From Aureobasidium sp. EXF-3400 (Eukaryota; Ascomycota; Dothideomycetes; Dothideales; Saccotheciaceae), in NCBI GenBank assembly GCA_024195585.1, contig SWBL01000037.1, forward strand, positions 1 through 64,000: a stretch of DNA of 64,000 nucleotides, in the 5' to 3' direction. Positions 4,732-30,554 of this stretch are shown piece by piece; the first letter of the stretch is position 1, and each line of letters begins with the position of its first letter. The translations under genes and the position numbers were made by a program. The notes under the pieces were generated by a model. That model made no database searches. It saw nothing but the letters and a program-made list of their open reading frames with translations, and was not told the origin of the DNA.

Positions 4732-5251
4732 GGTGTGGTTGTCTGTTGTCTGTTGTCCTGAGATGCGTTACGACAAAGCGATATTTGCAAAGTGACAACT
4801 GTGGTATTGCAAAAAGCTAGGACCGTATGGCGCCTTCGTGACATTGGTCAGGTTACTGAAGGCCATTCGCGATGGTTCAGATCGACTAGGAAGGGACAAG
4901 TCCATGCACCATCTTCATTTGACCAGACGCCTTACTCTTCTTGTCCATCTCATCCACATCAAACCACCTCTCGGACGCAGTCACCTAAGAAGAATATGCT
5001 GACATGCCTCAGTCAGACCAACAAAGAGACGCAAAGGGTCTGCCTCTTACACATGAAGCGTGCCGTGCGTGCGTTGACCCGACACGGCCCGACGCATGAA
5101 GGGTGAGCTCTTTGAGCTGCCCGAGCCTCTTGATGAGGGACTCCCTCTTGACTCTCCCTGGTCTTAACTTGTATCGATATCTCAACTTTGATCACCATGA
5201 CATTGAGGCTGTCCTGATGGCCATCCGAGTCTATACGCACACGGGAGACCT

Positions 5252-6079: not shown

Positions 6080-6643
6080 GTTGCGAAAGATTTTGGCTGA
6101 TGGATGAGAATGATTGATGCATTGGATGTTTGAGAGAGCAAGCAACTTTCTACCATGTTGTCTCGGCAAGAATTTCCGAATGAGCGTAAGCTTCGCTTAT
6201 ACCTGCCGCTATGCGGGCCAATGAGGTAATATTTTGAGCTTTGCAACTTCCACTTTGTGAAAGTCGCGTCTGCTGGACGAGGCCAGACTGAGATTGAGTC
6301 CAAAACCAAGGACATACTCAGGCATATTCGTCTAGAATACTGCAGGAAGACTGTCTGACGAGCTCAGTCAAGTACTATCTACTTGTAAAACCCACCGACC
6401 AGCGGCTTGAAGCACTGTGAGCTTATTCCCACGCGTCTTTCCAGATTGCGTTTTGGCGTTTGCTGCTTGGAGCCTTCTTCCGCCAGCGTGTCACAGCATC
6501 TCGCACGTCGACCTAATACCCGCTCACTATCACAAAGCTTGATTCATGCGCCTTTGCATGTCTCGCAGCCACATAGCATTTCAAACAGATTTATAGCTCT
6601 GGCCTATGACGCCGCTTGGTCAGCATTCATAAACTTGGTCACT
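6080..6643. promoter_or_regulatory. Divergent promoter region, POP3 / deubiquitinase
   Basis: 564 bp between the two head-to-head start codons. The part near 6500-6640 is C-rich and T-rich, like a fungal 5' leader. I see no recognisable element to name. An in-frame ATG at 6407 would lengthen the deubiquitinase by 79 residues. Confidence 0.5.
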
Positions 6644-9600
6644 ATGGACCATTCACCTATCTTACCAGCGGACAACACCGACCACAGCTTTTCACCTTCA
6701 TTGCTTCCTGGTAGAGATCACGTCGCCGATGCAGATGCTTCTCATTCACGCAAGCGACCTCGTCTAAGCGACGAGCCCGACTCTCCATCTTACACAAACG
6801 GAGCATCTTCCCACCTCTCTGATACTCAAATCACTTCGGGCACTGGAAGCCCGACTGTCCTCGGACTCCCCCAAGAGCAGTCCACTGACCCATCTGACAT
6901 CTCCATCATCATGGCTGGTAACGAGGTGGTCGCCGATGTACACCTCGGTAGCTTTCCGTTTCTGGCCGATCAAAACGAGACCCCTGAAAGCGCTGCCACC
7001 AAATTCGCGGAACACTGTCACCGCAAGACTGGTAAGTCTTTTTAACGACTTGATTTCCAATCCCTGCTGACACTGCTGAAAGCTCCTGATATCAGAGAGA
7101 TATACAGCCTCATCGAATGGCTCGATGGCCACTTGCGCGTCACCCACGACGAGTTCGATGCTGCTCTGAAGCATGACACAACCTCGTCCGCGATGTATGA
7201 TCTGTATTCAGACAACCCCGCTTTCTGGTATCAGATAGTGGCTTGCTTTCATGGACTGATCGGACGCTGGTAAGAATTCATTTGCTTTCTCTGCTCATCC
7301 ATCGTCTGACTTGATCTAGCTCTCTAAGCTTCGATGAGGGACTTACCTCAGGTGGAGCTTACGCTCTCTTTGAGGCTATACTCAATAGCCTGCTTAGGCT
7401 GGGTGAGAGGCTTTTACACACTGATGTAGCTATCCTGAAGCAGCGCGAAGCTCGCAGGGATTCGACAAGCTCTCCTACCTCCAACGATTCGCCGAAGCAT
7501 TCATTGCAATTCATCTTCTGGGTGACTACCTTCATAGAAATGGCTGTCCGCCCGAAAGAGTTTCTCGAACCCATGTCGTCGGCCTATCGCTTCAATGTCA
7601 AGTTTTTAGTCAAGAAGAGCATTGAGGACTTCCAACATTGTGCTATGAATGCTGTCCTCACACTCATCGAGCACATCGCCTCGAGGTCACATAACATCAT
7701 GTCGCCTTTCGCCACAGCATTTCCTTACATCAGCCTCTGTCACCATGTCCTGCTCTTCAATCCCAACAACGTTGGCGGCGAGCTCACCCTTTACTTCGGC
7801 AAGTCAACCAGGTTATTTGAACTTGTCTACACCATGACAATCCAGAATTTGCCTGTGCAACATCTCGATGACCATTCGCAAAACGTCATCGAGCACTTTC
7901 ACCAGTTCCTGGTGGATATGCTGCGCTCTCTGTATCGCACAGAGCATCTTTCTGCAGGCGCCATCTACGACATGATCATGAAAGAAACCATGGATCATCG
8001 GATCATGCGTCGAGAGTTGCTTGACTCTCCTCAGGAAAATGCCTCTTCTGCTTCAGATGAATGCGAGATCCACGACAGCATCAAAGTTTCTCTGGTCACA
8101 GAGGACGTGCTGGATGTAGCACTCCTCGCATGCTCCTTGAACTTCTTTGACGCCCTCATGCGAAGCAGCAGTATGGACCTGCGCAACCGCGCAACGGACC
8201 AGATGGGGGTTGTTGTCTGGGACACACACGCGAACAAGCAAAATTTCACACCAGGCTACCATCAGCTAGTGCAAGATTACACGGCCAGATTCATCTTGGC
8301 AAAGGACGTTCTGGGCTACCTTTGGGGACCTCAATCGCATGCGACATTAATCGGCAGAACTCTAGCTATGGTTGCGTTCATGGCCACCACAGGCAAGCTT
8401 ACCAAAGATATTGCAGACGCGGTCTGGAACGTGTCCTTCAACATTCAACAGCCGGATGAATCACAAAGCGCTATGAGGGTACTGCGGTGTCTTCCAAGAT
8501 ATCTGCCCTCTTTTGCTGAGAGATATTTCTGCAACAAATTCCGTGATCTTCCACTCTCACGATTCACCAGAGAAGCAGAAGAACTCTTCCGTGACCTCGT
8601 GACGGAGTTCTTGAGAACCACAACCAATGGCCAATACGAAGCAATCCAAATCTGCCTCCACTTGCTAGCCAGAGTCGAACATTCAGACATCCCATCTACA
8701 AAGCAGGATCAACTCTTGGTTGCTTTCGGACAACTCCTTTCGCGGATTCGATCTCCGCAAAACCCGCAGGAAAGCGTTCGTCTTGTCGAATCATGCGCTA
8801 CTACTATCGCATCGATGTCTGACGATGCCACCGGCTATGTGCTGGCATTGTCCTGCATCGTCAAGCAAGCGGGTTTCTCTGTTTCACCATCCGAAATTTG
8901 GTCGCGACTGCCGTTCTTTCGATGCGTCGATGAGCTGCTCAAGTATCTTGGAAGAGTAGAGACTGATGCGAAATCCTTTGTTCCTGGTGCATTGTGGTGT
9001 CGCTTGGACCTCATCACCTATGTTGTCGCAATCTCAGACCCAGGGGCTTTTGGGGGCCCTATCTTCGCGGCTGCGGAGAAGTCACTCTGGCAGCATGTCT
9101 TGGGCGAACATGCCTTGACACCACACCTACGCGACGTGGGTTGGCGTTTCTTCGTCAACTCTTTCCAATCCAATCAGCCGGAGCTCCAAGCGTTTCACAA
9201 CCGATTCATCAATCAACACCTCCCTGACATCTCACCTGACCTTGCGACACCTCAAACCATCAACTTTTTCAAGGTTCAGTACGCACTTCACGAGTCCGAT
9301 CACACTGAGCTATTGCCTCTCGGTGAGGAACTGATTAGGTTCACGCTCGAAGTGCCATCGGACAAGATTGCGCATGACTTCAAGGTGCTGCTTATGGAAA
9401 GTCTGTTCAAGGGCAAGGCGGTCAAGCACCCTGACCTGGCCGTTGACAATCAGATTTTGGTAGTCAGGAAGTTTGTTGCACAAATGAATCAACAAGGGGT
9501 CTCTGCAACGAGGGCTGCGGAGATGATACTAGTCATCTTGGCCGAGTCAATCCGGTTTCAAGAACTCCTTGAACGTTCAGACCAGGTCGCCTCTTGCGAA

Positions 9601-12600
9601 GTCAATCAAGCTGGGTCTGAAACTGCGCCAGACAGTATCCAGATTCCAATCCGTATCCACAGAGGCAATGCAAAACCACAAAACAGAATGATGACAATCA
9701 ACAAATCAGCGAGTTGTTCAGAGCTGGACGCTGCTATCGCCTCGGAGACTGGTTTTGCGAGTTACACCGTTGTTGCTGCAGGAAAGAAGATCAACTTTGC
9801 TGAGGAACCAGAGCAGTCGATAACGCAGCGCGGGCTTCGAGCAGGCAATGTTCTCATCATACAGAAGCGCAACACGTTCCAAAGTATCCAAGAGGAGGTC
9901 AACAAGAGCGCAGAAAAATCGATCATCCAAGGAGAGGTCATGTCACATCTAGACGTCTTGTACGGCATTCTTGACGGTACGGACACGAAGGCGCAGCTTG
10001 TCTTACAGATTCTTGAAGTCCTCAAGTTTCCTGGTCCTATAAGAGCCATGATTGCTGCTCCCGAAACGCCTTTCGAACAGATATTTCCCACTGGCGCATC
10101 CTTGCGATTGCGAGCCTCCATTGAAGTACTTTCTATCCAGCTGAAGGAACAAGTCTCGCTCGGCGTTGCCGACGAGAAATTCTTGCTTCGAGGAGTCCAT
10201 CTGCTTGTGAATTTACTGTGTCGTACTGATACTCTGCAAGAAGTCACAGATGTCTACCGCACAGCAGAAACTTTGACTGAAATGCTCAGAGAGCGGCCTG
10301 TCAACGACGTCACTGGGCAGTACTTTGAAGATGCTGTCAAGTTCACACACAAGATCATTTGTTATATCGGACAGTTTTCACGCGAGACTACAGTCGGCCG
10401 TGATAGTACGAAGCATCTCGCGATTCGGGCGCTATACCAATGTCTGTTGGAAAGTGTCCTTCTGAGCGACTCTGTCTGCGCCGCTTTTATTGCTGCGGAA
10501 AACATCGTCCCAATTCATCTATCGCTTCTTCTCACTGGAAGTGATCATCTTCGAGCTACAATTCCCAAATCCATCGTGAATGCTATCCAGGGTAAGAGGG
10601 CTTCTTACGAGCTCAAGGCATTCTTCTCCAAGTTTGCTCTGGAGAATCTCGTACCTACGGCCTTGGAGTATCCAGTCGTCTGCGACAACGCATTCTTAGT
10701 CAGCCTCGAGGCGGTATCTGCGGACCAAAGCTTGGTCACTAACGAAGCACTCCTGAGGACCTTGGTCGATAGGTTTGTCAAGCTTCTGCTCGATATGAGC
10801 CACCTCGAGCGCTTTGGCGACTGCTTTGTCGACAAGAGAATTTCAGGCCTAGTTTCGTTGATCCGATACTGTGTTCAGAATCTTGTATCACAAAACAAGC
10901 CATTGGACCTAGGCAATGTGCCTTCGCAGATATTCAAGACCTTGCTTTTTCCGATCCTCACGGCAAACAAGACTGTACAGCCTGTCCTTGCTTCCGAAAC
11001 TCGCAACAACATATACGACCTTCTTCGGTTGATGTGTGACAACGTCCAAACACTGGAAGATCTGACTGTAGATTGCGAAAACGTCGCTGGCTACTGCACA
11101 AATGACCAGAGCTTCACTTTCCCTGGTCCTAAGGAATACATCCGACAAGAAGGCAACTATGCAGGGTTAGCCAATCTCGGCCAGACATGTTATTTCAACT
11201 CACTACTACAACAGCTCTTCATGAATGTTCAATTCCGAAAATTCATCTTTGACACGCCGGTGATCAACACAGAGAAGCAAGCAGTCCTTGTTGAATTCAA
11301 GTTAGCCTTTGCATATATGCAAGACAGCCACGACATCTTCTACCAGCCCGAAGGTCTTACCAAAGCTTCGAATGTTGACATTACTGTGCAAGATGATGCT
11401 CACATTTTCTTCATGACCTTAATCGGTCAGCTTGAGGAAAGCATGCCTGACGACGAAGCAAAGAATGCTTTGAAAGCATTTTTCCGTGGTGTCAACAAAT
11501 CACAAACCATCGGTAGCTGCAAGCATGTCTCCGAAAGCACAGACGAGTACTTCAACTTGTCTTTGGTCGTCAAAGACAAAGCATCTCTTGAAGAAAGCTT
11601 GGACGAGTATACCAAAGGAGCCACTCTTGAAGGGAGTGATAAGTTCAGGTGCACCACTTGTGGCTCAGGCGAGGGCGTTTCAGTCGATGCTGTCCGAAGA
11701 ACTGCCCTCGAGCACATCCCTGACAATCTGGTCTTGGGTTTGAGACGTTTTCGCTACGAAACCTTCGATGGCGGCCAGAAGGTCAACGATAGATTCGACT
11801 TTCCTGAGTTTATTGACATGAGCAAGTACAAGCTTAACCGTCTTGCAGGTGTTGAAGGGCCTAGCGAGTCTGATATCTTTCAACTTGTGGGCGTGGTCGT
11901 ACATTCAGGCATCTTGACATTCGGCCACTACTGGTCATACGCTGCCGAGCGTGGAAACAGTGGTTCGGGGCCTCTACGATGGTATTGCCTCGAGGATAAG
12001 AATGTCAGACCCTCGGATATCGAGGAAGTGCTTCGCGAGACTCGTGGTGGACCAGTTCCCACTCTGATGACATCCCTGGAAGGCAATCAATCCCCGCGTC
12101 TTCGGTCGGACAATGCATATGTTTTGTTCTACCAACGCGTGTCGTCCATCACTGAGTCTGCACAGTGCCTTGATACAAGCACGGCTGCACTTCCTTATTC
12201 AATACACGCCAAGGTCCGTTTGCCTACAGACCTTGAGACTCAGATCACCAAGGAGAATCAGCAGAAGATGTTTACTCTCCATCTATTCTCCTTGACTCAT
12301 CTGGAATTTGTTCGCGGCCTGATTGGAAGATTGGGAACGATCAAGAATGTCGACGCCTCCGCAACCAGCAGGGCAACACACAAGCTCATGTCAATGTTGT
12401 TGAAATACTACACTCGCGTCGTTGCAAATTTCGACAGCGAACATTCTCCTCAATCCATCGACTTTACTGCAATCCTACTTCAGAAGTTGGCATGCAGTGG
12501 CAAGAATTCCGCGCATTGGATGCTAATGGCTTTGCTTCCTCGAAGAAGCGAGAAGGACAAGTCCAGAAACCTTGTCTTGCATCACAAGCGTGCAGTCCGT

Positions 12601-14184
12601 CTCGCTATGAAGCGCTTAATTTTAGCTTGTTTCCGATACCTTCGCGAGCACGATTCGACTTACCTTGACATGAAGGATGGAGATGGTTCCAGCGGCAGCC
12701 TCGGCACCATGGTGGATGCCATTTACGGCCTGATCGATCTTCTCCCTCGTCTTCTTGAGCGTCCGCAAACCGTCTGGGAGGATTACTTTGAGCTTGTGCG
12801 CCATGTCGCAGAGCTTGGTCCTGACGAAACGTTTGTTTTGCTCAAGCGAGACGTCCTCAAGTGGTGTCTGGAAGTTTTGTTCCTCAAGGAAAAGACAGAG
12901 TTACAGAAAAAGCATCCAAACGTCATGAAGTTGATTACTGACAACCCTCGCTGGCTGAATCATGCCGCACTGGTCAACTGCATCTACGGTCTACTACACA
13001 AATTCGTCGATCTTCGTGGACCCGCTGCGCTTGATACCACTTATCGATGGACAGACTCGCAGATGCTGTTGTTGACTGCTGAAGAGCACGAATACTTGGT
13101 TCATCGTTCTAACACTGCGAGCAACTGGATGGTAGAGCTCTGTATGCAGGGAATATCATTTTCCAAGCGAAGGTGAGTGACGATTAACATGTCCTGTGTG
13201 TTCGATAACTAACATTCATGATAGCACCTGGAGTGAATGGCCCACAGTCCACCTCGTCGTGCTGCTTACCGACGCCGACAGAGTCTCTTCCGAGCTCTAC
13301 GATGACGCAGTCCGGGCGCTCACCATCAATTTGAAATGTAGCACGGACGATGATTCAGTTGCAGAGTCTGTTCTATCCTGCCTGCTCAAGCGAAAGCTGA
13401 AGTCGAAGACTGAAGAAGAGATATTTCAAGAGATCAAATCAGTTCTTTCTCGCGAGGCCATACAACGAAACCACCCAACTGTCTGGGGCATGATGTTCAT
13501 CGTAACACAAGTTTACAAGACTCACCCACAGATGATCATGCATCACCTGGCCACCTTCCTTGGTCTTCTGTTGGACTACAACGATCGTGCCGTCGAGAGA
13601 GAAGCCCGGGACGCGTTGAGGAATGATATCTTGGTTCAAGATGTGCTTACCAAACCCTATACCCTTGACCACATTCGACTCCTCCGCGACAAAGTACATG
13701 CTATGAAGAAGCTGCTCTCAGGCCTCGGTAATTTGTTGAACGCGGCCATTCACAAAAGTGAATCAAGCAGCGGTTACGAGTATACCGTCGAGGCGTATCA
13801 TGACTGCGGCAATTACTTGCATCTCGTGTCCTCAAGCCATGATGCCGAGCTGGAAGAATGGTTGCAGAGCGAGGCACCCGACACCGAAGCCGGCACTGAG
13901 CTTGATACTGTTGTGCAGGAGTTGTTCAACGAGATCGGCGGTATCGATAACCTCCTGCGCCTACACGAGAATCTTCGATACCAGATTCGTGAGTGGCAGG
14001 ACGAGCACTCCGTCTCAGACGTGCCCTCAAACAGCAATGTTGTTGAGATTGATGATGGTGAGTTGTAGTTTTTTAAACACTTGTCTCTTGTGCCAACAGA
14101 TTGCTAACAAATACTCCAGATTCAGACAATGAGGCCATGGCCTCTGACGACTCACTAAGTGAAGTTGCGGAATTCGACGACTAA
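6644..14184 (+). CDS. Giant ubiquitin carboxyl-terminal hydrolase, USP9X/FAF-like
   Basis: Cysteine protease removing ubiquitin from substrates. Exons 6644-7031, 7098-7269, 7320-13172, 13225-14057 and 14120-14184; introns of 66, 50, 52 and 62 bp. Product is 2,436 residues, in the range of fungal relatives of USP9X/USP34. A basic nuclear-localisation-like SRKRPRL lies near residue 36. A long helical-repeat-like N-terminal half precedes a ubiquitin-like segment (about 959-1037). The USP catalytic domain (about 1467-1794) has the Cys box GLANLGQTCYFNS (Cys1477), the His box FGHYWSYA (His1723), the later WYCLEDKNV motif and a Zn-ribbon pair CTTC. A long helical C-terminal region ends in an acidic tail. 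The active site looks intact. Start 6644 chosen for context; 6407 is possible. Substrates cannot be inferred. Confidence 0.92.
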
Positions 14185-15125
14185 ATAGAATCCGCTCACG
14201 AAGTAGCTTATGGCTCATCATGCAGATGACTGCAGGCTTTCATGACTGGAAGGAACACGAAAATCCAAATCTACAGCCAGAGAACAGACTGAACAAACCA
14301 ACATATCGGGAAACGGCGTTTTAGGGTGTTTCCTTCCATGCCTTGAGAGAAGTGGGCGATCTGCTACAATGCATAGCGAGGAAACCAGAGGGTAACACGA
14401 CGAAGCATCTCCAAGGCGTTTTTCCTTTACTGCTTTTCTTGTTTTTCTTTCTCGACGATGGTAATGAATGGGCGGGGAAAATGCATTATGGAAAAAAAGG
14501 CGTTACTGGTACAATGGAAGAAGGAATGAACGTTCATGGAGAGGAGTTCTTGCTTTTTTACTGTACTTTTAGATGGGAGAACAGTTATGCGAGAGAGAAT
14601 GAAGTTCGTGGAGTTTTTGCTTGTTGATGTCTTGTGTCTTTCTTTATTGTTGAGATGTGGTCGAGTTGTGCTCGTGACTTGGCATGATTATCCGTGTGTC
14701 GCTTGAAGTAAGTTGTGTACCATTCGGTGCGTTTGCATAGCTTCGATAGTTGACGATATATGAGATAGTAACTTGAGGAGCAAGACTTTCCTGCCATTGG
14801 ATTTGGTCGCAATGGGAGGGAAATGCAAGGTATTCAATCGAAGTCGATTCGGGGCGGGTTCGAGGGTGCAAGAAAGTTTTTGGAGCGGACAATGCTACAC
14901 TGTCAGAATTCATTAGCCTTGCCTGGTAGGAGGCTTAGCGGTGGCTTCACCAACTCAATTTGGGCACTGCCACATGAACCTTGGCGGCTTTGGCACTCAA
15001 ATGCGTAAGCCGACGTTGGATTCTTGCCCATCTTCGTATCTCCACTCCACTCTAGAACGCGCCGCCCACGGACGTTCTTAACCTCTATATCAACAATATC
15101 TACAACGATCGTTCGCATTGTTAGC
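14185..15125. other. Intergenic, start of an 8-kb gene desert
   Basis: No supportable gene. The first few hundred bases should be the 3' UTR of the deubiquitinase. The stretch just before 15126 (CTCTATATCAACAATATCTACAACG) looks like a fungal CA-rich 5' leader for the short gene that follows. Confidence 0.5.
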
Positions 15126-15321
15126 ATGGCCATACAATTTGATCCATTCAGCTTTGTTGTCGCGACATTCGCTCTCGCCATTGCTGTCGTCCAGCTTTAC
15201 TGGAATCGGCCTCAGCACAGAGCCCAAGTATATAGTATTGCTATCTGTCTCATGCAACACCTGCTAACTACTCTCGATGTAGATGGTACAGGAACTTTAC
15301 ATGTTGCACGGGCAAGCATGA
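15126..15321 (+). CDS. Micro-gene 1: 46-residue single-helix peptide, FDPFSF...LYWNRPQ family
   Basis: Exons 15126-15227 (34 codons) and 15283-15321; intron 15228-15282 (GTATAT..GCTAAC..TAG, 55 bp). The peptide begins MAIQFDPFSF, has an uninterrupted hydrophobic helix at residues 11-24 (VVATFALAIAVVQL), then YWNRPQHRAQ, and ends with a short hydrophilic exon-2 tail. It is one of three clear paralogues in the desert, all with 34 codons before the intron. Fewer coding bases than usual gene finders accept, so probably unannotated. By composition it is a single-pass membrane or membrane-anchored peptide. It faintly resembles hydrophobic N-termini of larger fungal proteins of the DP(L/F)S type, which is inference only. 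Real-gene evidence is paralogue conservation plus the shared splice site; expression is untested. Confidence 0.62.
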
Positions 15322-15943
15322 AGAGGGCAAGGGACTACCGAACCACGAGACTACCAGGACTTTAAGTCCGGTGCAATCGTCAAAAGCGGCACACGGCGTC
15401 ACCATGCGTCCCAATCCTGGAAACCAAGCTTCGGCGTCCCATCACATGGACTTTTTCTTTTGTTCTTTTTGCTTAATCGTCTTTAGCAGATGCTTCTATT
15501 CTTTCCTATGATGACCACTTCATGCTCTTTTTGTTTTCTCTCTTTTTGACCTGGACTTCGGTAGATGTTTCCGTTCTATTGTCCTACTTTTTTTTTGTTC
15601 GAATCATGGTCTCATGTGCATTGGGCGAAGAATAGCGCACACGGCTTTCAATGTTGAATATTCGCAAAACTTTTGGTTACCAATGATCTGATCGAGACTT
15701 GAATTTCAGAGAACGAACTTCCAGATACGATAAGGATGTTACAACACGTATAATAAGCCATTTACAATACTCCCCCTGCTCCGTGACGGATCTTTCATAA
15801 CCCACTGATCACGGATGACTAGAGGTAAGTTTAGCCTGAGTCTTATCCGAGTACAGTTAGTGGCAGCTTTCCCCGTACCTTTCCAAGCGTGGACTCAACG
15901 CCCGGGCCGCTCGATGCTCGGGCCGAAGCGGTTCCCCGTGACA
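15322..15943. other. Intergenic
   Basis: T-rich stretch (about 15450-15600), then mixed sequence. Probably the 3' UTR of micro-gene 1. Nothing else I can support. Confidence 0.4.
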
Positions 15944-16116
15944 TTATGGTTCTTTCAAACAAGTCTTAACGTCGGTTATAAACCAAGCAATGGTTCGAAG
16001 ATAGATACATTGATAGGAGGTCGAGGCCATTGTTGAAGAAGCTGAGCAGCGGCAATGATTACCGCGAGTATAGCGAAGACGGTCTGGATCGCGCCGAGAA
16101 TGAGTTCGGCATTCAT
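15944..16116 (-). CDS. Possible diverged micro-gene (single-helix peptide ending in QLLQQWPRPP)
   Basis: ATG 16116 in a plausible leader context opens MNAELILGAIQ, a strong hydrophobic helix (TVFAILAVIIAAAQLL), then QQWPRPPIN. A GTATCT donor follows at 16008 with an acceptor at 15965, giving exon 2 (15964-15944) of six codons plus stop and a 42-residue product. This copies the architecture of the neighbouring micro-genes: short N-term, one helix, W-x-R-P motif, intron a few residues later, very short exon 2. Without splicing the frame ends after 46 codons at 15976. Residue identity to the family is low, so common ancestry is a suggestion. The intron is only 44 bp and has no clear CTAAC. Confidence 0.35.
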
Positions 16117-16922
16117 GGTTGTCCAATTAGAGTCTGGAGCGGCAGATCTTGGCAAGTTGAAGATGGAGTAATTTCAAGCAGAACGAGAGGTGGTCTCGAA
16201 GATCAGATCACAGATCGTCAATGATGGCGCACTTGTTAGATCAATGGTTTTACAAAGCCAGTGAGGGAGAGTAAACTTGTAGCTATACCATGAGGAGACT
16301 TGGTGGTCTTCTTATAGACGTGGTGGACTCCAGCGCTGATAGACCCCGCCCATTTGGGTGTCTCTTGGCGTGAAGTCGAAGATCCTTTGAAAATACATGT
16401 CTGCCTACCTCATTACCATTTCTTTCGAGATTGGGTGTGGGGTCGGCCGCTCTTCTAGCCTGCAAAAGATCACAATTACTCGCTCTTCTGGTCCAGGCTT
16501 CATCAAGTAGTTAAGCCGGTGTATAGTTTGAAACGTGAGATACGGCTGTCGAAACCGCTGCTGCTCGTTCCTTTGGATACTCTCGACCGAAAGAAGCAAT
16601 TGAATCTCGTCCATGCAACGAAGATGGACATGTTACTCTTGTGTTGTGACAACCACAGACGCACTTCAGATCATGATCGTTTGGCGGGTACGGAAAGTCA
16701 GACAGTAATGGGTAGCCCGTCATGGACCTTCCATTGCGCATCAATTTTACCACCACATGTACTTGGTGGAAAATACTTTGACTTATTGTAGCCAAATGTC
16801 GCAAAGTATGTTAAAATATTCTCGTGGAAGCTGTAGGAGTGAGTGATCAACATCATCATTTCAGACCTGGTCCGCAGATATCAGAGAACGCGCCGAGAAA
16901 CATAACAGAATGATTATCAGAC
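16117..16922. other. Intergenic
   Basis: No supportable gene. The first 90 bases above 16116 read, on the minus strand, like a leader (CCATCTTCAACTTGCC) for the possible diverged micro-gene. Short open frames here lack splice, start or composition support. Confidence 0.4.
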
Positions 16923-17009
16923 AAGGTCGTGACACTGGGGTCGATCCCAGTGAGGCTGCTTGAAAGCAACAGCACGAGCGGGAGAACATCCGAGGTATCT
17001 ATAACACAT
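16923..17009 (-). pseudogene. Decayed copy of the micro-gene family
   Basis: On the minus strand, ATG 17009 opens 29 codons containing ARAVAFKQPHWDRPQCHDL. The last part lines up with ALAVACMQLYWNRPQHRHV of micro-gene 2: conserved A, AVA, Q, W, D/N, RPQ, and then four residues before a GT at 16922-16921, the same intron position as the intact copies. The FDPFSF start is missing and the helix is broken by K, P and H. The bases upstream (AGATTGAAGCTTGAA) resemble those upstream of micro-gene 3. A relic or fast-diverged member. Confidence 0.5.
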
Positions 17010-18237
17010 GGTTCAAGCTTCAATCTATCAAGCGTCAGCCGGGACGAGGGTTGCGCGACATTGACCAAATCTGCTTCGTGTGAGATTCTCTCTTGCATCA
17101 AACCAGGACAGCAGTAGAAATTGCCGCCAGCGTAAACGACCCGCCTTCACGAACAGGAAAGCAACCAGCGTCCAAGCCGTGACGAGACACACTGCGCCTT
17201 CGGACACCTTACCCGACCAAAATTTCTGCCAATCAAAGAGAGTCAAGGAGAATCAGGCGACCATTGGTGAGATGTGCTGGCATTGGACAAGGGGTCTTGT
17301 GCTGAAGTCGGTTTCGTGGCTTGAAGTGCATCATCTTTCCCGGTCAAGTCCTTCCGCGGATCTGCTGCCATCCGTTTTTCTCCCTTTCTTCTCCGTCAAA
17401 CATCCTCGTTCAACTGTTCGACCACAGATAATAAAACATCAAAAGAGTGATTCCAGATTGACAATCCCGCAATGCCCGCCGCCAAAGGTAAGAGAATAAT
17501 TTGACAGTAGCCAGAATTTCTGTGAGTCGCTCGGACAGAGTTCACGCGACGACACAGATGGTCGAAGCCCAAACCGTGACTTCTTGTCTCGGTGCTTTAC
17601 TGCGATTTATCAGACCAGATACTTGTGAAAGCAGACACTTGGATACATGTACTCTATATTGTACTTCGTCGCAAGCCGCCTAGATTTCTCGATTTTGACC
17701 CTCCGTTCTTTCTAAACCATATTTGTGGGTTGCTTTTCGTATTTTTTACTCAAAGAACAGAAGAAAAAAAAGGCAGATCTGTCTGCTCTGTCACCTTGTC
17801 TACTTCTCTTCAACCCCGAGCATGCGTATACACAATCACCAAGGCGGAAAATATATGCGAAACAGAGATCGCAAAGCGAAGAGGCATCTGAACATGGAGC
17901 ACGAAGAGTAGTTCTGTCCTAGGGCCGAAACGTCAAAACGACAGGGTTGACACCTAAGACGATATAGCAATGTCTCGTTCCACCTAGGCACCATGCCAAT
18001 ACAAACTGTGCTCAACTTCCCAGGTGTGTCAACAATGCGAACAAAAAAATGAAGAAAAAACCCCTGGTGCCACAATGAAACAAGGGCGCACGTTTCGTTG
18101 CAATCAGTTCAGTCATACTAGAATCAGGCTGCAGCAAGACGGTCAGAGACAGCAGAAAGTCAATACGAAGAGCATCGTCGTACCTTATCATTATACAGGC
18201 CAAAACCATTAAACCTATGCTGTGGTAGGTCATGGCG
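17010..18237. other. Intergenic
   Basis: No supportable gene. Short overlapping frames around 17.6-17.9 kb and 18.0-18.2 kb have no coding character that I recognise. The low end of this stretch should include the 3' UTR of micro-gene 2 (minus). Confidence 0.4.
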
Positions 18238-18420
18238 TTAGACATGATTGATCACAGCCTGCTGCGAAGAAAAGTTAGAAATGCAGACTCAAAGGAAGAT
18301 AGGAGAGCTTTGACATACAACATGGCGATGCTGAGGTCGATTCCAGTAGAGTTGCATGCATGCAACGGCAAGAGCAAATGTTGCAACGCCGAAGCTGAAA
18401 GGGTCGAATTGGATGTCCAT
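18238..18420 (-). CDS. Micro-gene 2: 41-residue single-helix peptide, FDPFSF...LYWNRPQ family
   Basis: Exons (minus) 18420-18319 (34 codons) and 18261-18238 (7 codons plus stop); intron 18318-18262 (GTATGT..TTCTAAC..CGCAG, 57 bp) with textbook fungal donor, branch point and acceptor. Begins MDIQFDPFSF, hydrophobic helix at residues 11-24 (GVATFALAVACMQL), then YWNRPQHRHV; the exon-2 tail starts with Q and ends H-V. Same exon-1 length and same exon-2 length as micro-gene 3, and the intron is 57 bp in both. About 45 bases upstream also align with micro-gene 3, which implies duplication of a unit larger than the coding part. Function unknown. Confidence 0.66.
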
Positions 18421-20309
18421 ATCTAAGACCTTTGGGTATTGACTCAAACTTTTGGTATCTGAAAAAGGACTCTAAGGCAGTTGTATTGTCTGAGTGTGCT
18501 AGAATTGTTGCTGACGTTGCTCACAGAGACGAGCGTACAACCTGGACTTTATACGTGAACTGTATGATACAGTGAAATGCTCAGCCGCGGGTGTATGCGC
18601 CACCCATGATGGGTTGAACAAACTGTGATTCGCTCTAAATTAAGCCACTACTCGAGTAAGTGTAGATAACCAATCGTAGGTCTTGTTGCCCGGCATATCG
18701 CATGACTGGCTCTGAACCTGGATCACATTGTGCATGATGTTACTCCACGTTTTTGCTGTATTGAGATATTTTATACCATAGTTAGTGTGGTGTTTGGTCC
18801 AATACTTCCATGCTTAAGCAGATCAGACATTCGGCTCTCCGTGTACTTTAGGGATCAACCAACACACGCAAGCCAACTCGGTACTCTTTACGAGCCGGGC
18901 GGATCGAGCGCCCCTTGAGCTGTCAGGGATTACCGCAATATCGATGGACGTGCAGCTCCGTCTGATGAAGTGACAGCTCTTGAGAGCTAGACAGATCTCC
19001 TCCCGTATTTTGCGGATGAAGTTATGTCGTGAGGGGTCGACAAAGCTTCGAATGCTTAGATGAATACGGCAATTCGACTGGTGCTATTTGGCATGGAAAA
19101 CTGGAGATGCTGCAACGCTGCAGCTTATAGCGTTGATCATACTGAGGACTTACCGTCCCAATCCATACAAGAACATATTCTCTACGTTGATGACCAGGCC
19201 AGGAAATTTCTGCTGCATGCGACGTGCTTTCTGGTTGGAGAGAAATAAATTGTGACGGTGCGGAGGGGTTACTTTTTGATTGGTTCGCAGCTCTGGCGCA
19301 GCCTCGATGTAGAACGAGAACTAATCAAAAACGAGTTGCTCCAGTTATGCAGGCACTCTGAAACGCCGATAATGGCATCTGCTTTCCGTTCTTGGCAGCG
19401 CTAAGATAGACAAAAGACACCTTCTATCCTCTCTCCATCCTCTCGCCCTGCACCTTACGATTTCTATTGACATCTCTCGCTTTAGAGAGGAGTGGTTCAT
19501 CTTGAGGTCAGTTTTAGCTGAGGACCTTCCACTTATCATCTGCACGAGCAGAACCTAGCTGGGCAATGACAACCCCTGGGTGCTTTCTCACGTTGTTCAA
19601 GCTGTCGCTGGTATCTTGATAGAGGCATGTGCAGTGACAGTGTGCGGAAGTCACTTGCCTTCTGAGACGTCTCGCTTCTTCTTTCCTCCCGCACTTATTC
19701 ACCCGTGCCTCGCCCGCTCGATTCTCCAAGACTTCATTCGCCTGTCGTCACCCGATGCTTGAGAGAGCTATGGTGTAGCACGCAGGTCGAACGGCCATGC
19801 GTAAGCAGAGCTTCAACCGAGCAACGTATCTCGTTCACCTGTGGTCGAATATTATCTACACAAATACAGAATTCGGGGCTAGTAATGGACCAGTATCATT
19901 GCCACTAACAGTTTGTCTGCACAGATGTAGACTGATAAATATGTTGATTGAAAAATGACACACAAGAAAACTACACGATTCCTGAACAGCAGGTCTGCCT
20001 AAGATGGTTATAATTCTGCCATTCCTATTTATTATACCTCTACTATATGGGTTCATGAACAGGCAAGAAGGTCAAGTATGAGAACACGAGGCACAACTAT
20101 GCCTGGTGCCATTTGATGTCTATACGAGACATGTAGAAGAGTAAAGGCAACTATAAAAGTACAATAAGAAGAAGAGAACAGATGCTGGAGTAGAAACGAG
20201 CGTATGGCCGACATATCAATACAATGCCCGAACTTCGATGACCCGAAATCAAAGACTGGCGAAGCGTTGTGGAGATATACGAGTAGGTCGTGGTCTGGAA
20301 TTCAAATCA
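18421..20309. other. Intergenic
   Basis: 1.9 kb without a supportable gene. A minus-strand frame at 19514-19729 ends in a protein-like stretch but has no relative I recognise and no splice support. Holds the promoter of micro-gene 2 at its left end and the 3' UTR of micro-gene 3 at its right end. Confidence 0.4.
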
Positions 20310-20492
20310 TCAGGCATGGTCACCTGCCGATTGCTGGATGGATAGTTAGGAACACCACACGTACTGTAGACGACTTGGACGTTGACTCACGGTATGATGG
20401 CGCTGAGGTCGATCCCAGTAGAGATGAATAACAGCAATGGCAAGAGCGATTGCCGCAACACCAAAGCTGAATGGATCAAATTGTATGGACAT
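20310..20492 (-). CDS. Micro-gene 3: 41-residue single-helix peptide, FDPFSF...LYWDRPQ family
   Basis: Exons (minus) 20492-20391 (34 codons) and 20333-20310 (7 codons plus stop); intron 20390-20334 (GTGAGT..CCTAAC..CCAG, 57 bp). Begins MSIQFDPFSF, helix at residues 11-24 (GVAAIALAIAVIHL), then YWDRPQRHHT; the tail is Q-S-A-G-D-H-A. Compared with micro-gene 2, exon and intron lengths are identical and most exon-1 differences are conservative (N to D, V to I, T to A). That pattern indicates selection on the protein, although I could not compute a dN/dS ratio. A second acceptor (GGCAG) lies 10 bases downstream. Function unknown; a membrane-inserted peptide is likely from the helix. Confidence 0.66.
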
Positions 20493-22066
20493 CTCGAAGG
20501 CTTCCAAGCTTGATCTTGAAGTTTTTGGTGTTTTGTAAGAATGAGGACGTGAAACTGCTAGAGTGTGATGTGATTGCAAGGCTTTGAATGGTGCTGGTGG
20601 TTCTTGAGACAAAGAGAAATGCTCGAGGAGCGCAGAGTTTATATCTTGGAACATTTACGTAGGATGGCGTATTGTATGTTACAAAAAGGTGGCGGAGGAA
20701 ATAGATTGAGATGGGCTTGTGGAGTGCATCGGCTTGCTGCATGATACTTTCCTTCCGCAGCCGATCCAGCCTGGCGGGAGGATTGCACAGAGCATGTGTC
20801 CGGTAATGTTAAGAGTTTTGATAGAAAATGGGTACACTACTCTTTTTCATTCCCCCTAGCAGATGACAGGCTCTCCAAATTGATTCAGAGTGGTGATGAG
20901 TATCTTGAACAGCGAAAAGGAATTTATGCTGTACTACCTGTCATCCTCAGAGCATTTGTTACAAAGAAGCGCCCTTGTGAACCCGTAGGTCTGGTCCGTC
21001 TAGAATAGCAACAAGAAATTAGACACCATGACAAGATAAAATACCGGCTGCCAGACTGCTCACAGCCATCACGCATGAGTAAACTCTGAGACCCGCGTGT
21101 AAAACAAGTACGCGCAGTTGTTGGATCAGGTTACGCGAGCTCAAGATCCATGATTGATGATCCGAACGAGTATCGGCCACTTGGTTTAAATTACGCTGTT
21201 ATCAGCAGTTCGTTGGAGACTGCCTCTCAGGGGTCAAGGAGATTTGTTACGACCAGAAGTGTTCACTGGAGGCCGAGATAGATTACGAGTATCCGCAAGG
21301 CTGGCCGGCAGCGACATGTCGCAGCTGGTTCAAAGGCAAGTTTGCCGAGTTTGTCCAGACTGGACAAATTCGGCGAACCTGCCATGTTGTTCGCATAAGG
21401 CAGTGAAGCCCTGGATTTGTTAGCTCTGCTGGTACCTTACAGACAGAAGTGTCGTTATGAGCTCTGCCTGTACTAATTTGATCATGCCGAACATATGATC
21501 TATTGCGACCCAAGAAGTGAGGCACTTCCTTGATATGTAAATAGGCGCCCTTGTGATGCGAGCGACTTCCTTGACGCATCCATAGCCAGAGTTGTCACGA
21601 TTTCGCGATTGTGGCCGAGAGAAGATGTGATGCTCAGGAGGAGATTTCCAGGCATGATTAGAGTGATGGAATCATTCAAACGTGTGATACTGAACCAATC
21701 GCAGTGAATTTTTCGTTGTAAAATTGTTACTTGCCACGCACGATGTTCGCATCGATAACAGGAAGAAGAAGCTTAAGTAATACCAGTTGGGGGAGGAGCC
21801 CCTTATATAGCTAACCGTCATGAGCACGGACAACGTTACCACTTCAACACATTCTGCAAGATCTTGACTTCTTCTCTGGCACCTTCCTCTTCTCAGAGCG
21901 TATCACGAGCAAGAAAACCAGTGCCACTTGTGAAAAGGTGGAAGAAGGAATGCTGCCTTCCGATTCAATTCAAATAACTTTTTTCCATGCCTCTGATCTC
22001 TCATCCTCAATCCCGTCGCATGAATCAAAACACACAAGAGCCCGAGATCAGCTCTTTCCTGACTTT
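20493..22066. other. Intergenic
   Basis: 1.6 kb, right edge of the gene desert. Contains the 49-bp palindrome listed separately. Otherwise nothing I can support. The right end should contain the 3' UTR of the minus-strand gene that follows. Confidence 0.45.
21335..21383. repeat. 49-bp near-perfect palindrome (24-bp arms, 1-base centre)
   Basis: Left arm GGCAAGTTTGCCGAGTTTG plus TCCAG; the right arm read on the other strand is GGCAGGTTCGCCGAATTTG plus TCCAG. There are 21 of 24 matches, and all three differences are transitions, so an RNA copy could still pair fully with G-U pairs. The centre is a single base at 21359. No flanking coding sequence. Could form a cruciform or, if transcribed, a very stable hairpin. 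Confidence 0.75.
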
Positions 22067-23686
22067 TTAGACAAATCCACCACCATAGTATACTTTAGCA
22101 CTCCTTTCTCCAACATTGTTCTCATCATTTCCTGCTACATCGCCCCATCCCACACCTACACCCCCAGATGCAACAACAGCTTCACCGATCCCTCTTCCCC
22201 ACCCACTCATTCTTCTTGCTCCTTCAGTCATCACTCTCCCACTAGCTTCCCAGCCTTGTTGCAGGCTCCTTCTCGCCACAGAAAGTCTACGTACCCCTTC
22301 TTTGACACCGACTTGGTTTGCTTTGATTGCACCGGTGGAGATGGCAGTTTTGAGTTTGGCATTTAGATTGGTGTGGAAAGAAGAGATGGAGGAGGCGGAA
22401 GAAAGAGTAGTATAGGCTGTCGATGATTTGGGTCGGAGAGTGGGAGGAGTATGGGAGTACTCCATTGGTTTGTCTCTAGGTTTGTCGGCTTGAGTGTCTC
22501 GGGGTGCGTTGGTGATATCAGAGGGCTTTGGTGGGTCAGGGACAGGAGGGGGAGAGGAAAGCAGAGGTCTGGTGTCGATGGTTGTTTGATGGCGTTTGCG
22601 CCTCAATGCTGTAGAAGGCGGAGACAAATCTTTCTTTTTGGTGCTGCGATGACGGGAAGAAGGTAAGTTCAGCTGTATGCCCTCACTGCTGGACTCGCTC
22701 GACGATGAGAACCAAGAAGTGACTTGAGGACGTGGTTGACCAATCACTCCTAGCCTCCTCGTATCAACAGGTCCAGAGCTGCCAGGTCCTGAAGTATCAC
22801 ACAGCTGCAGCTTACTGTGTGGTGGCGCTGAGATCCCCGAGTGTCTGACCAAGGGTCGAGCATCCAGTCTCAATCCGTCGACCGTCTTCATCAGCGACGT
22901 TGCTTTCCCCTTCCTCGTTGTACCTTCCTCTTCCTGGCCTCCATCTTTCTTCCTTCCAATCAACACAGTCTCTTTGACAACTCCATCAAGCGAAGCATAA
23001 GTGCTTTGTGCAAGACTTTGCTCTTGTGTCTGCGGCTCAGTCTGGACCTGTGTCGTCCATTCTTGCTGCAAGTTTGTCTTCGCAAGATTTCTTTGCAGGG
23101 GGACTCCAATCTCAAACTCCAATGTCGAGCCCGAGTCATCCGAATGCAGCAGCCTACTCATCGAATGCACAGAAGCGGGTTTAGTAGCCGTGGTTTCAGT
23201 AGGACTGATGCTCGCATCAGCAGTCTGACCATCATTGCCTTGACGAGAAAGAGAAAAGTATCGTCCAACGTCTTCCGGCTCCGTGGCTTCGGCAGTAAAA
23301 TCTGCGAGAGCGGAAACAAGTCGGTTGTTCTCGTCAGGACTGGTATCGGTGTCTTGTGCTCCAATCTCAAGACCCGTAGTCAAGGAACAGTCATCGATGA
23401 TAATCTCAGGTAGCCTGCTGTCGCAGCGGCTACGAGTGCTCTCTGCTTGTTCATGATGTTCTTCATCTTTGTTTCCAGGACTCTTGTCACCCGAGTTGGT
23501 CGTCAATGGCACACCTTCCTCACCAAAAGGAGAATTGGAACTGTCGTCATCGTTCGAAGTCCCGGAATCCAGTTTTGGTGGTGAGAGAAGGCTGTCGATT
23601 CTTGTTCGGCGACACTTGTTGCAAAAGTTATCGAGGGCTGCTGATAGCGAAGAGCGGCGTCTGCCCTTGGATTCTGGTGAGGACAT
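22067..23686 (-). CDS. Disordered fungal protein of unknown function (539 aa)
   Basis: Single uninterrupted frame of 539 codons from ATG 23686. Composition is low-complexity and mostly disordered: Ser/Thr/Pro-rich, acidic near residues 40-180, with a proline run (SSPPPVPDPPKP) near the middle. The last 110 residues differ: a short helical, basic stretch (LNAKLKTAISTGAIKANQVGVK, RRLSVARRSLQQGW) followed by a Gly/Trp-rich end (MSGWGRGIGE, GVGWGDV). The long frame with good codon structure, and the absence of any equally long frame on the other strand, support a gene. I do not recognise the family. The conserved-looking C-terminal basic helix is the likely functional part; this is inference. Confidence 0.7.
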   Translation of the reverse strand: MSSPESKGRRRSSLSAALDNFCNKCRRTRIDSLLSPPKLDSGTSNDDDSSNSPFGEEGVPLTTNSGDKSPGNKDEEHHEQAESTRSRCDSRLPEIIIDDCSLTTGLEIGAQDTDTSPDENNRLVSALADFTAEATEPEDVGRYFSLSRQGNDGQTADASISPTETTATKPASVHSMSRLLHSDDSGSTLEFEIGVPLQRNLAKTNLQQEWTTQVQTEPQTQEQSLAQSTYASLDGVVKETVLIGRKKDGGQEEEGTTRKGKATSLMKTVDGLRLDARPLVRHSGISAPPHSKLQLCDTSGPGSSGPVDTRRLGVIGQPRPQVTSWFSSSSESSSEGIQLNLPSSRHRSTKKKDLSPPSTALRRKRHQTTIDTRPLLSSPPPVPDPPKPSDITNAPRDTQADKPRDKPMEYSHTPPTLRPKSSTAYTTLSSASSISSFHTNLNAKLKTAISTGAIKANQVGVKEGVRRLSVARRSLQQGWEASGRVMTEGARRMSGWGRGIGEAVVASGGVGVGWGDVAGNDENNVGERSAKVYYGGGFV

Positions 23687-27169: not shown

Positions 27170-29005
27170 GTTGGAAGGATGCTGTTGGTACAGCTAGGTG
27201 GTCTGGGTGGGTGCGTTGGTCGAATCAAACAGGGTCAGAATGGTGTTGATTGGTCGCAAGACACGGCCAGTGCGGGTGAGTCACGTCCGAGCAGCAGCGA
27301 CAGCTCCGAATGGTTGACCCAGATTGGGTGCAGATTAGAAGTGGACAGCAATGCGACTTGTGATGTGGGTAGCAAGAGCTTGACCGGTGATGGCGGCGGT
27401 GTCGAGATGCGGGCTAGTGGGCGCAAGTTAAGATTCGAGAATGGAGTAAAACAGACGTCGAAGTTCGGGCGCGGAGAAGGGGCAGATGAATAGTTGCGAG
27501 GCCAAGCAAGGATTACGATGTTGGAGCGAAGGCCACGTTGACAAGGTCGAAGAAAAGCACCGGGAGGAAATCGTTGGTTCGTCTTCCTGAGGTCGTCGCA
27601 GCGGTTCTTGAAGTTGTTAGGCAGCAGCCATTCGTACTCCGCCTCACCTTCCTTCCTCGGGATCACGCGTCCACGTGCACACTTGACCAGTCTGATCCTT
27701 GTTGATTGATAATGCTGATTATGGCAGCTGCTTCTCTCTCTGGGAAGAATATTCAATTTCAATACTTATACCACGCACGCTTCAACTCGACTTTGCTTCT
27801 CACCTTCGTGGTCCAACTCATCATCAGGGTCCGCGGTCTCTCCAGACCGTTGGCGCAAAGTCGGATCTCGGTCAAAATGTAACGCCGCCGGGCTGTGCTC
27901 CTGACTTGCAGTTCCAGGAAAATGGTCGCTTCCATTCAAGTCGTTCTGGTTCTGCTGCGGGAGGATCAGGATTCGAGCTTTACGACTCGGCCGTAGTCCT
28001 GCTGCTCAATGAAAGATTCAAATTACTATTCGCCTTGCAGCGGAGCTGTACCGCGACTCGGCAGTGTCAAGATGGCACTCCCGTGTCTGCAATGAGCCGT
28101 GTTGCTTCACCGGATGGTAGGGCTGATATCACATGATCTCGCGGTCGACGTCTTGAAGATTGCACAAATTGTGCTCAAAGGAGTGTGCAATCTGACGTAT
28201 GTACAGTTCGCTACATCAGATTCTTGGATATGTACTCAGTGGTAGTTTGCATATGCCAGACCGCTGCGTCTCGTTCTACATGACTTTGCGAGACTCAGCA
28301 GCTCAGGTTCTTCGTTCGTAGATTAGCAGAACGCTGTGACCTTTCACAGGGCGGATGCAAAATGCCAAGCAAACCAGGACTCCATCCATCTTCCAAATTT
28401 CTTCAGCAAACTTCTCTTCTCTCACTCCATCACATCGATCACGGATCATATCGTGTACAAATCCGCACACCCTTCTGCTTGAGGGCCATTGACTTCTCAG
28501 AGGTAAGCTTCATTCCTCCGACAGCACACATATCACCCTATCCTCGAATGATGAAGTATTTTCGGATGTAAAAATTTATTGTCTTGTCCGAGAGCGCAAA
28601 ACCGTGTGGACATTTTCCGTTGCCTTCCTTCTGACTCTCACCACTATCTTCCGTTCTGCATACCAAGAAGCTTATGTCTTGATAATTGCTAACAAAGATA
28701 ATCAGGTTTTCAAGAATCTTCTGTGGAACGTGGTTTTGGCTTTGGAGGACGACATAAGGTGCATGGGTTTACTCGATTATCTATAATTTAGCATGACAAT
28801 ACACATCCATTATCTGTTCACATCGTTGAGCCTTTCAAAATTGTGTTGCAGTGCCTGTCTTCAATATGGCGTGAGTGTCTCCATCCAGGTGGACTGGCCA
28901 ATCTCCCGAGTAGCAATTTCCCCGCGAACAGATCGGCCGACTCTGAGTGCTTCCATCTCAATGAAATTGACCCTCCTTCGTACACAGCCCACATAACACA
29001 ATTCA
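27170..29005. promoter_or_regulatory. Long divergent intergenic region, zinc-finger gene / ERG26
   Basis: 1.8 kb between head-to-head genes, long for this window, as is usual upstream of fungal regulators. The part from 27170 to about 27700 probably holds the 5' leader of the zinc-finger gene. A minus-strand frame of 175 codons (27762-27235) and a plus-strand frame of 145 codons (27699-28136) occur but lack convincing coding features. A hairpin-forming inverted repeat lies at 28157-28193. Confidence 0.45.
28157..28193. repeat. Inverted repeat with 10-bp perfect arms
   Basis: AGATTGCACA at 28157-28166 and TGTGCAATCT at 28184-28193 are exact inverse complements. The left half also contains the nested palindrome GCACAAATTGTGC. 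Could be a regulatory site in the long divergent promoter; no known factor is named. Confidence 0.5.
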
Positions 29006-30241
29006 ATGGCCGCCTCAAGCAGTAACATCGGTCGCAAGACGACGTCGACCAAGAATCTGGGCCATGTCCTCATCACTGGAGGATGCGGTGGACTGGGTAC
29101 ACAGATCATCAACCTCCTGCTCGAACGCAATGCATGCACCAAGCTCTCAGCAATGGACCTGCGACCTGCCGCCGAGCCCATCAAGGGTTGCGACTACCAC
29201 TTTGGAGACCTTACAGACGAGGGTGCTATGCGCGAGCTGTTTGTCAAGATCAAGCCCGACATTGTTGTCCACACTGCCAGCCCCAAGTTCAACATGCCCG
29301 ACGAAATCTTGTACAAGGTCAATGTCGACGGAACCAAGACACTTCTTCGCGTGGCCTCAGAGACTGGTGTCAAGGCCTTTGTATATACTAGCAGTGCCAG
29401 TGTCATCAGCGACAGCGCGACCGACTTGATCAACGCCGACGAGACCTACCCCCTTATCACAGGCAAGGAGCAGCCTGACTACTACACCAACACGAAGGTA
29501 CATAGTAGAACCCCGTCCCACGCTTGCCACCACTAATCTGTATTGCAGGCTCTTGCCGAAACGTCCGTTCTCGAGTACAACCGCCCCGCCTCTAACCCTC
29601 GTTTCCTCACCTGCGCTCTTCGTCCTTCTGGCATCTTCGGTATCAACGACCAGACTGTTCTCCCTGGTATGCTTGGAGCATACTACAAGGGCCAGACCAA
29701 GTTCCAGCTCGGCGACAACACCAACCTCTTCGACTTCACCGAGTCTACCAACGTCGCCCATGCGCATCATCTGGCGGCGGCCGCTCTGGTGACGACTTAT
29801 GAACGCGAAGAGGCAGGACAGATTGCACCTTTGAGTCACGAGAAGGTGGATGGCGAGGCGTTTTTCATCACGAACGATTCGCCCATGTACTTCTGGGACT
29901 TCACTCGTACTGCATGGAAAGAAGCAGGTGATACTACCACACCCAGCCAGGTCTGGACGATCCCCAAGGATCTCGGACTGTTCATCGCAACCTTGTTCGA
30001 GTACATCTTCTGGATCTTCCAGCTCGGAGTGCCAAACTTGACCAGACAAAAGGTCAAGTACAGCTGTATGACGAGATACTACAGTATTGAGAAAGCTAAG
30101 AGAAGACTGGGTTACAGACCAGTTGTGGGCGTCACTGAGGGGCTCAAGAGAGGAGTCGCAGACACTATCAGACGGGGGCTGGTACCTGGCAGCCCTGAAG
30201 AGGCGCAGCGTCTGGCTGCAGAGTCCAAGAAGGCTCAGTAG
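29006..30241 (+). CDS. ERG26: Sterol-4-alpha-carboxylate 3-dehydrogenase, decarboxylating
   Basis: ER enzyme of ergosterol synthesis: NAD(P)-dependent oxidation and decarboxylation of the 4-alpha-carboxy sterol, working in the C-4 demethylation complex with Erg25, Erg27 and Erg28. Exons 29006-29497 and 29549-30241; intron 29498-29548 (GTACAT..CAG, 51 bp). Product is 394 residues. An N-terminal Rossmann segment HVLITGGCGGLGTQI gives the nucleotide-binding GGxGxxG. The 3beta-HSD pattern continues with VVHTASP, YTSSASVI and the catalytic YTNTK (Tyr160/Lys164) directly before the intron. A hydrophobic segment near residue 310 (FIATLFEYIFWIFQLGV) fits the family's membrane helix. Start 29006 gives a usual-length N-terminus. 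Confidence 0.93.
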
Positions 30242-30554
30242 ATGGACTCTTAATGAACGTGTTGATATGATTGTAATATAGAAAATTCCTCACAGTATTC
30301 TAAAATGTTGGCTAGATGCGCCCAATCGGGAAGGATGTTTTGTTTGTTTGTTCTGTAGATGGGTCGGTTGCGCGGACTGCAGCTCCCGCTTCCCCTCGTT
30401 GTTTCAACTTTGCGACAAACAGAAGTTCTGACTCGCCTTGTGCCTACTCGATTGGTCGAGCCTTGCTTTTATCAATTGCTCTTGTTTCCCGTTCAATCCT
30501 TCAGTTCTTCTCAACATCTCAACCCGCTGCGACTTGAACAGCACTTCGCCTATC
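30242..30554. promoter_or_regulatory. Upstream region of the NTF2-like gene
   Basis: 313 bp, tandem arrangement with ERG26. T/C-rich towards the start codon (TCAATCCTTCAGTTCTTCTCAACATCTCAACCC), like a fungal core promoter and leader. Nothing specific is recognisable. Confidence 0.4.

Follow-up and report, generated by a model that had tools for sequence, protein, structure and literature searches.

We analyzed a window of 64,000 nucleotides from Aureobasidium sp. EXF-3400 (bases 1-64000 of contig C37, in a genome of 53.4 megabases (Mb) and 717 contigs) and found that three very short loci within it are, judging from patterns of sequence constraint, very probably genuine spliced protein-coding micro-genes that form one conserved family. 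The three loci share the same layout: a first exon of 34 codons (102 bases), a phase-0 intron and a second exon of 12 or 7 residues. Their coordinates, peptides and introns were as given in an initial annotation of this DNA and are listed below.

15126..15227, plus strand: micro-gene 1, exon 1; 34 codons with FDPFSF, the predicted hydrophobic helix and LYWNRPQ; included in the selection ratios below
15228..15282, plus strand: micro-gene 1, predicted intron of 55 bases, GTATAT...CTAAC...TAG
15283..15321, plus strand: micro-gene 1, exon 2; MVQELYMLHGQA-stop, resembling VVEELHVLHGQA (P0001) and MVEELYMINGQA (P0015)
18319..18420, minus strand: micro-gene 2, exon 1; 34 codons, donor GTATGT
18262..18318, minus strand: micro-gene 2, predicted intron of 57 bases, or 60 through the second AG of CAGCAG
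18238..18261, minus strand: micro-gene 2, exon 2; QAVINHV-stop
20391..20492, minus strand: micro-gene 3, exon 1; 34 codons, donor GTGAGT
20334..20390, minus strand: micro-gene 3, predicted intron of 57 bases
20310..20333, minus strand: micro-gene 3, exon 2; QSAGDHA-stop (the counterpart at C57:137079 is QHAGSHA)

Predicted splicing joins MAIQFDPFSFVVATFALAIAVVQLYWNRPQHRAQ to MVQELYMLHGQA in micro-gene 1, MDIQFDPFSFGVATFALAVACMQLYWNRPQHRHV to QAVINHV in micro-gene 2 and MSIQFDPFSFGVAAIALAIAVIHLYWDRPQRHHT to QSAGDHA in micro-gene 3. The acceptor CAGCAG of micro-gene 2 leaves one residue ambiguous, such that its tail is either QAVINHV or AVINHV.

The initial annotation had considered the agreement between these loci very unlikely to arise by chance and had proposed a selection ratio as a check. 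We computed the ratio of nonsynonymous to synonymous differences per site (pN/pS) between paralogues, using the 15 pairs of six exon-1 sequences and skipping any pair without synonymous change. Mean pN/pS was 0.30 in frame compared to 1.69 and 1.81 in the two other frames, although these ratios are rough because synonymous sites are near saturation in many pairs; the value for micro-genes 1 and 3 was 0.54. Across the 34 codons of the six sequences, the third position was variable in 29 codons, the first in 17 and the second in 14. These results point to purifying selection that is specific to the predicted frame and to a resemblance beyond chance. The second exon was conserved as well: in the group of micro-gene 1, exon 2 keeps 7-9 of 12 residues (three comparisons), whereas the intron, when read through, keeps 3 of 18 residues in the one comparison possible. 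In the group of C57:139721, which consists of closer relatives, exon 2 keeps 5-7 of 7 residues and the intron also keeps 7-14 of 16-17, and the contrast between exon 2 and intron is therefore not separated in that group.

The initial annotation had reported about 45 upstream bases common to micro-genes 2 and 3, a similarity that turned out to be weak: the score of their last 50 bases was reached by 3% of 500 single-base shuffles, and 2 of the other 20 pairs outscored this pair. TATA-like boxes were irregular, being present within 400 bases upstream in 6 of the 10 loci scanned. A scan for promoters and terminators gave results around shuffle level, the scan models being bacterial and unsuited to a fungus.

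A protein-level search of the genome with the 34-residue consensus of exon 1, in which all 7 candidates were scored, identified seven loci: the three micro-genes of the window, C57:137079, C57:139721, C118:99305 and C35:51199. All seven are micro-gene loci, and the speculative link to larger fungal proteins that had accompanied the initial annotation found no counterpart in this one genome. The position of the intron is conserved, with a donor exactly at base 102 in 6/7 loci. The predicted introns measure 55, 57 and 57 bases in the window and 53 (C57:137079), 51 (C57:139721) and 45 bases (C118:99305) elsewhere. C35:51199 has no clear intron and its open frame reaches a stop after 37 codons. 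Its tail, compared by eye to those of its relatives, shows an apparent one-base shift: L033 (C35:51098-51208) ends in TRTG-stop and so does P0026, while P0020 and P0022-P0025 continue to VEVL or VEVM.

We then searched a large protein database for relatives, using queries of 41-54 residues, so that far longer proteins were no candidates. The micro-gene 1 query matched 11 of 11 candidates, and an alignment of ten sequences matched 29 of 51 candidates at an expectation value (E) up to 10, including those 11. Other samples carry these relatives on numerous contigs, as many as 49 in a cluster. An intron-like boundary was found behind the anchor, i.e., the part encoded by exon 1, in 19 of the 29 relatives (placed by eye for P0009, P0013 and P0014 and by script for the others). 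The residue V follows the boundary in 19/19 and is itself followed by C, R, S or G in 17/19, as encoded by the NGT codons of a GTNNGT donor; the exceptions are P0002 with Y and P0015 with W. Because the sequences are related and hence not independent, these counts should not be read as probabilities. Of the remaining ten, eight are related to the C35 locus; P0011 carries V one position later, followed by D, and the N-terminus of P0029 has diverged. In five of the eight sequences related to C35, V stands near the boundary but is followed by E, with a stop about three residues further.

The micro-genes also form a cluster on a second contig. The window at 5246-14578 corresponds to C57:156055-146753 in inverted orientation (71% at the DNA level) and the window at 28360-32196 to C57:127321-131151 (79%). 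The clusters sit between these two anchoring segments on both contigs and the inversion adjoins the cluster. We compared window 13801-22200 to C57:136000-147300 in translation (E up to 1e-3), which yielded the micro-gene loci, the end of a protease gene with the stretch after it (window 14026-14440) and two marginal matches (E 7.5e-4 and 8.7e-4). Apart from the two marginal matches, no further conserved coding exon was detected in this region, and the micro-gene loci are nearly the only conserved sequence between the two intergenic regions. Around micro-gene 1, DNA similarity to the other loci is confined to about 90 bases of exon 1, and the C118 and C35 regions matched neither the window nor each other at the DNA level (E 1e-4). 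The codon constraint, the conserved exon 2, the donor-like residues of the relatives, the cluster on a second contig and the 29 database matches all support the view that the micro-genes are paralogous and protein-coding.

The predicted shape of the peptides is that of a single-pass membrane protein. An AlphaFold prediction using 12 sequences presented a single helix spanning residues 7-26 of 34 (mean predicted local distance difference test score, pLDDT, of 82.3). We further compared 23 sequences, namely the seven genomic ones and 16 of the 29 relatives; the 13 others were set aside as near copies, insertion-bearing or divergent (P0002, 6, 7, 9, 13, 14, 17, 22, 24, 25, 26, 28 and 29). The best 19-residue hydropathy ranged from 1.41 to 2.19 and the best window was 8-26 in 19 of the 23 sequences; the hydrophobic stretch, initially annotated as 14 residues, therefore measures about 19 residues (8-26) from hydropathy windows and AlphaFold. 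Net charge was negative over residues 1-9 and positive over residues 27-34 in all 23 sequences. A hydrophobic helix of about 20 residues with a charge bias across it supports, as a prediction, the earlier suggestion of a membrane-inserted peptide. Nine positions were invariant among the 23 sequences (F5, D6, P7, F8, F10, A16, L17, L24 and R28), an invariance that is broken by some of the sequences left out: position 5 is L in P0009, position 28 is H in P0026, position 16 is S in P0028, and the FDPF motif is missing from P0029. Positions 9, 13, 16, 20 and 23 were small or polar in 23/23 sequences, with a 4-3-4-3 spacing.

We tentatively propose, with slightly less than even confidence, that these genes encode single-pass membrane microproteins acting as a small regulatory or stabilizing subunit of a larger membrane protein. 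There is strong support for exon 1 encoding a constant anchor, in which a short acidic N-terminus is followed by the predicted helix (Pro7 to Trp26) and by an Arg-Pro flanked by basic residues, and for a phase-0 intron that joins this anchor to a tail of 7-12 residues. The positive-inside rule suggests an orientation with the N-terminus outside and the C-terminus inside. The small or polar positions may pack on another membrane helix; the microprotein would thereby attach to a larger membrane protein, with the tail of each paralogue exposed to the cytosol. The tails are kept among the close relatives of a gene and are more variable between paralogues than the anchor. It is conceivable, albeit rather unlikely, that the system is modular, with the anchor docking on one shared partner and the phase-0 intron allowing paralogues to carry different, separately conserved tails. 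If true, a single membrane complex would owe a diversified cytosolic face to a small cluster of genes.

Several observations weigh against our proposal. No partner is indicated, and the recognized neighbors of the examined regions are mutually unrelated. A helical-moment test gave no significant support for the small or polar face (p 0.22 at 100 degrees and 0.18 at 102.9); the 4-3-4-3 stripe is therefore a post-hoc observation and this face should be taken as a lead only. The relative P0018 has an Asp at position 19, inside the predicted helix. Moreover, four of the six spliced tails fit the pattern Q-four residues-H-(A/V), which weakens the idea of paralogue-specific tails; the tails outside this pattern are those of micro-gene 1 (MVQELYMLHGQA) and of C118 (RHGQKQPQQV). 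Finally, searches against Pfam, PHROGs and PDB profiles returned nothing convincing: the weak matches to CcmD, a plant viral movement protein family, complex III subunit 9 and a phage holin family resemble what chance yields for a short hydrophobic helix.

Alternatively, the peptides might act alone and oligomerize in the membrane as a pore or stressor, similarly to one-helix toxins and holins. A short hydrophobic helix with a basic C-terminal flank would suit this role, clustered copies and a decayed relic (described below) suit fast-changing loci, and micro-gene 1 presented a weak match to the phage holin family phrog_14453 (E 0.0047). Micro-gene 2 had no such match, however, so that only one of two micro-proteins resembled this family, and the locus lies beside eukaryotic genes in a fungal-type genome; we did not retain the peptides as members of phrog_14453. 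The helix is also constrained (core pN/pS 0.06-0.30 in ten pairs of five copies), the presence of relatives on many contigs is more like a maintained role, and no antidote gene was recognized, though none was searched for. We consider this scenario unlikely. It is also unlikely that the peptides are constitutive structural subunits of a known membrane complex such as the respiratory chain, a translocase or the oligosaccharyltransferase. Their size and single helix are compatible with such a role, and the profile search listed seven PDB sequences, all of them complex III subunit 9, but with E around 0.3 these matches are not significant. Structural small subunits of membrane complexes are usually single-copy, and seven loci with different tails do not fit this expectation.

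The hydrophobic N-terminal half and the short conserved tails (e.g., QSLDAHV) could also suggest that exon 1 is a signal or anchor exon and that the tail is released as a small secreted, pheromone-like peptide. This appears very unlikely: the N-terminal side is acidic rather than basic, few parts are as conserved as the L-Y-W-x-R-P junction, and inspection by eye, without a signal-peptide program, revealed no cleavage site, CAAX end or peptide repeat. It is even harder to believe that the loci are not micro-genes but non-coding DNA under conservation, or exons belonging to larger or mobile genes: the constraint is specific to one frame, exon 2 is conserved, no other clearly conserved exon lies nearby, and the similarity around micro-gene 1 stops with exon 1.

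The proposed subunits of a larger membrane protein can be compared to known systems. PMP1 and PMP2 are proteolipids of about 40 residues associated with the yeast plasma-membrane H+-ATPase, with one membrane helix and a basic C-terminal flank. The micro-gene products resemble this family (PF08114) in size, single helix and basic flank, and PMP1/PMP2 served as a model for the proposed way of working. Five peptides, the fifth of them with a wrong-frame tail, were scanned at E up to 10, and none matched PF08114. At the genome level, this profile gave two weak places below the cut-off, neither of them a micro-gene locus, and none of 14 control genomes scored over the cut-off, which left this search without a positive control. 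With no profile match over the cut-off, membership in PMP1/PMP2 was not supported. In animals, phospholamban, sarcolipin and their relatives are one-helix regulators of ion pumps; the likeness of the micro-gene products to these short microproteins is one of predicted shape and of the proposed binding to a larger membrane protein.

Similarities were also found to bacterial and phage-labelled sequences. Proteins of about 197 residues from a Microbacterium genome and two phage-labelled contigs (L040, L042 and L043) start, in striking resemblance to the micro-genes, with MQIQFDPFSF and a hydrophobic stretch, matching at 54% over 28 residues (L040 5001-5084 and L042 5001-5084) or 57% over 21 (L043 5001-5063). 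They differ from the micro-genes in carrying about 160 further residues and no L-Y-W-x-R-P. This likeness probably represents convergence because the scans were baited with family motifs, namely MxIQFDPFSF or the LYW-RPQ end (2/34 and 2/35 candidate stretches passed). Another bacterial match (L041) consists of the string LYWNRPQ in a frame of 669 codons, either close to its end or in its interior, and was judged to be due to chance.

Microproteins with one helix are a known kind, but this family and its spliced layout appear undescribed: open-licence literature (judged mostly from listings) and Pfam contained no description of it, and no open-licence paper was found with the letters of the core motif. 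Genes of about 40 codons that are split by an intron can elude gene predictors and surveys of small open reading frames (ORFs) because no single open frame spans them. In a survey of conserved fungal small ORFs, those of 80 codons or fewer were predicted in 31 genomes with ORF finders (PMC7394265), presumably as uninterrupted frames. Those small ORFs are likewise short conserved fungal coding sequences overlooked by ordinary gene prediction, and the main text of that survey does not contain the words Aureobasidium, Dothideomycetes or single exon (PMC7394265). The present family shows that intron-split micro-genes can be constrained and multi-copy, and its signature (34 codons, a donor, an intron of 45-57 bases and a short tail) may be used to find others. 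It also constitutes a concrete and testable set of candidate membrane microproteins in an apparently stress-tolerant lineage of black yeasts.

The genomic context offers further information. For a 1200-residue piece of the ubiquitin-protease gene that flanks the cluster, a single close second copy was found on C57 (71% of residues), and the ten further matches reached at most 36%; two further genes of the window have second copies on C10 (95-96% of residues, about 84% DNA). The genome looks duplicated or hybrid because of these second copies on C57 and C10. The G+C content of the window is 49.7%. Hortaea werneckii, which has a duplicated genome, was considered as the host and disfavored on account of its G+C content of 53-54% (PMC3744574, PMC9535773). 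Four Aureobasidium assemblies measure 25.4-29.6 Mb, with a G+C content of 49.9-51.1% and a median intron of 57 (PMC4227064), and diploid strains of A. melanogenum exceed 46 Mb (PMC9535773). A duplicated genome of 53 Mb with about 50% G+C and introns of about 57 bases would be compatible with a diploid or hybrid Aureobasidium. We scanned 17 ORFs around four regions against Pfam. In the window, the neighbors were a ubiquitin protease and, farther away, a sterol-dehydrogenase-like gene; C57 had an amino-acid permease along with a glycosyltransferase, and C118 had a family-1 glycosidase along with a gene resembling Prp31; none of the three ORFs scanned on C35 was recognized.

Two additional elements of the window, a member of a distant subfamily (16116, minus strand) and a relic (about 16935-16980, minus strand), had been overlooked in the initial annotation.

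16009..16116, minus strand: distant subfamily member, exon 1; 36 codons, MNAELILGAIQTVFAILAVIIAAAQLLQQWPRPPIN; copies at C57:138177 and C37:126497
15952..16008, minus strand: distant member, predicted intron of 57 bases; acceptor AAAG, uncertain
15895..15951, minus strand: distant member, predicted exon 2; NHNVTGNRFGPSIERPGR-stop
about 16935-16980, minus strand: apparent decayed relic of a micro-gene exon 1; ...HWDRPQ..., local score of 38 against exon 1 of micro-gene 2

The distant subfamily (MNAELILG...QLLQQWPRP, with an exon 1 of 36 codons) lies within the cluster of the window and its C57 counterpart; on C57, it is flanked on both sides by the main family. In two of its three copies, a phase-0 intron is predicted at base 108; the donor of the third is in a different phase and this copy may be decayed. 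Between the window member and its C57 copy, pN/pS was 0.17 over 99 bases. This subfamily had no relative in the large protein database. A profile comparison of the two subfamilies gave a probability of 84% over 26 columns, which is only suggestive of kinship since hydrophobic helices look alike anyway. The relic scored 38 compared to at most 26 in 300 shuffles, the region having been chosen by eye; in the scan of window 14001-22000, the runner-up scores were 32 (micro-gene 2, opposite strand) and 25. Finally, at window 17472-17487 on the plus strand, ATGCCCGCCGCCAAAG is followed by GTAAGA and resembles, by eye, another tiny first exon that is unlike the family.

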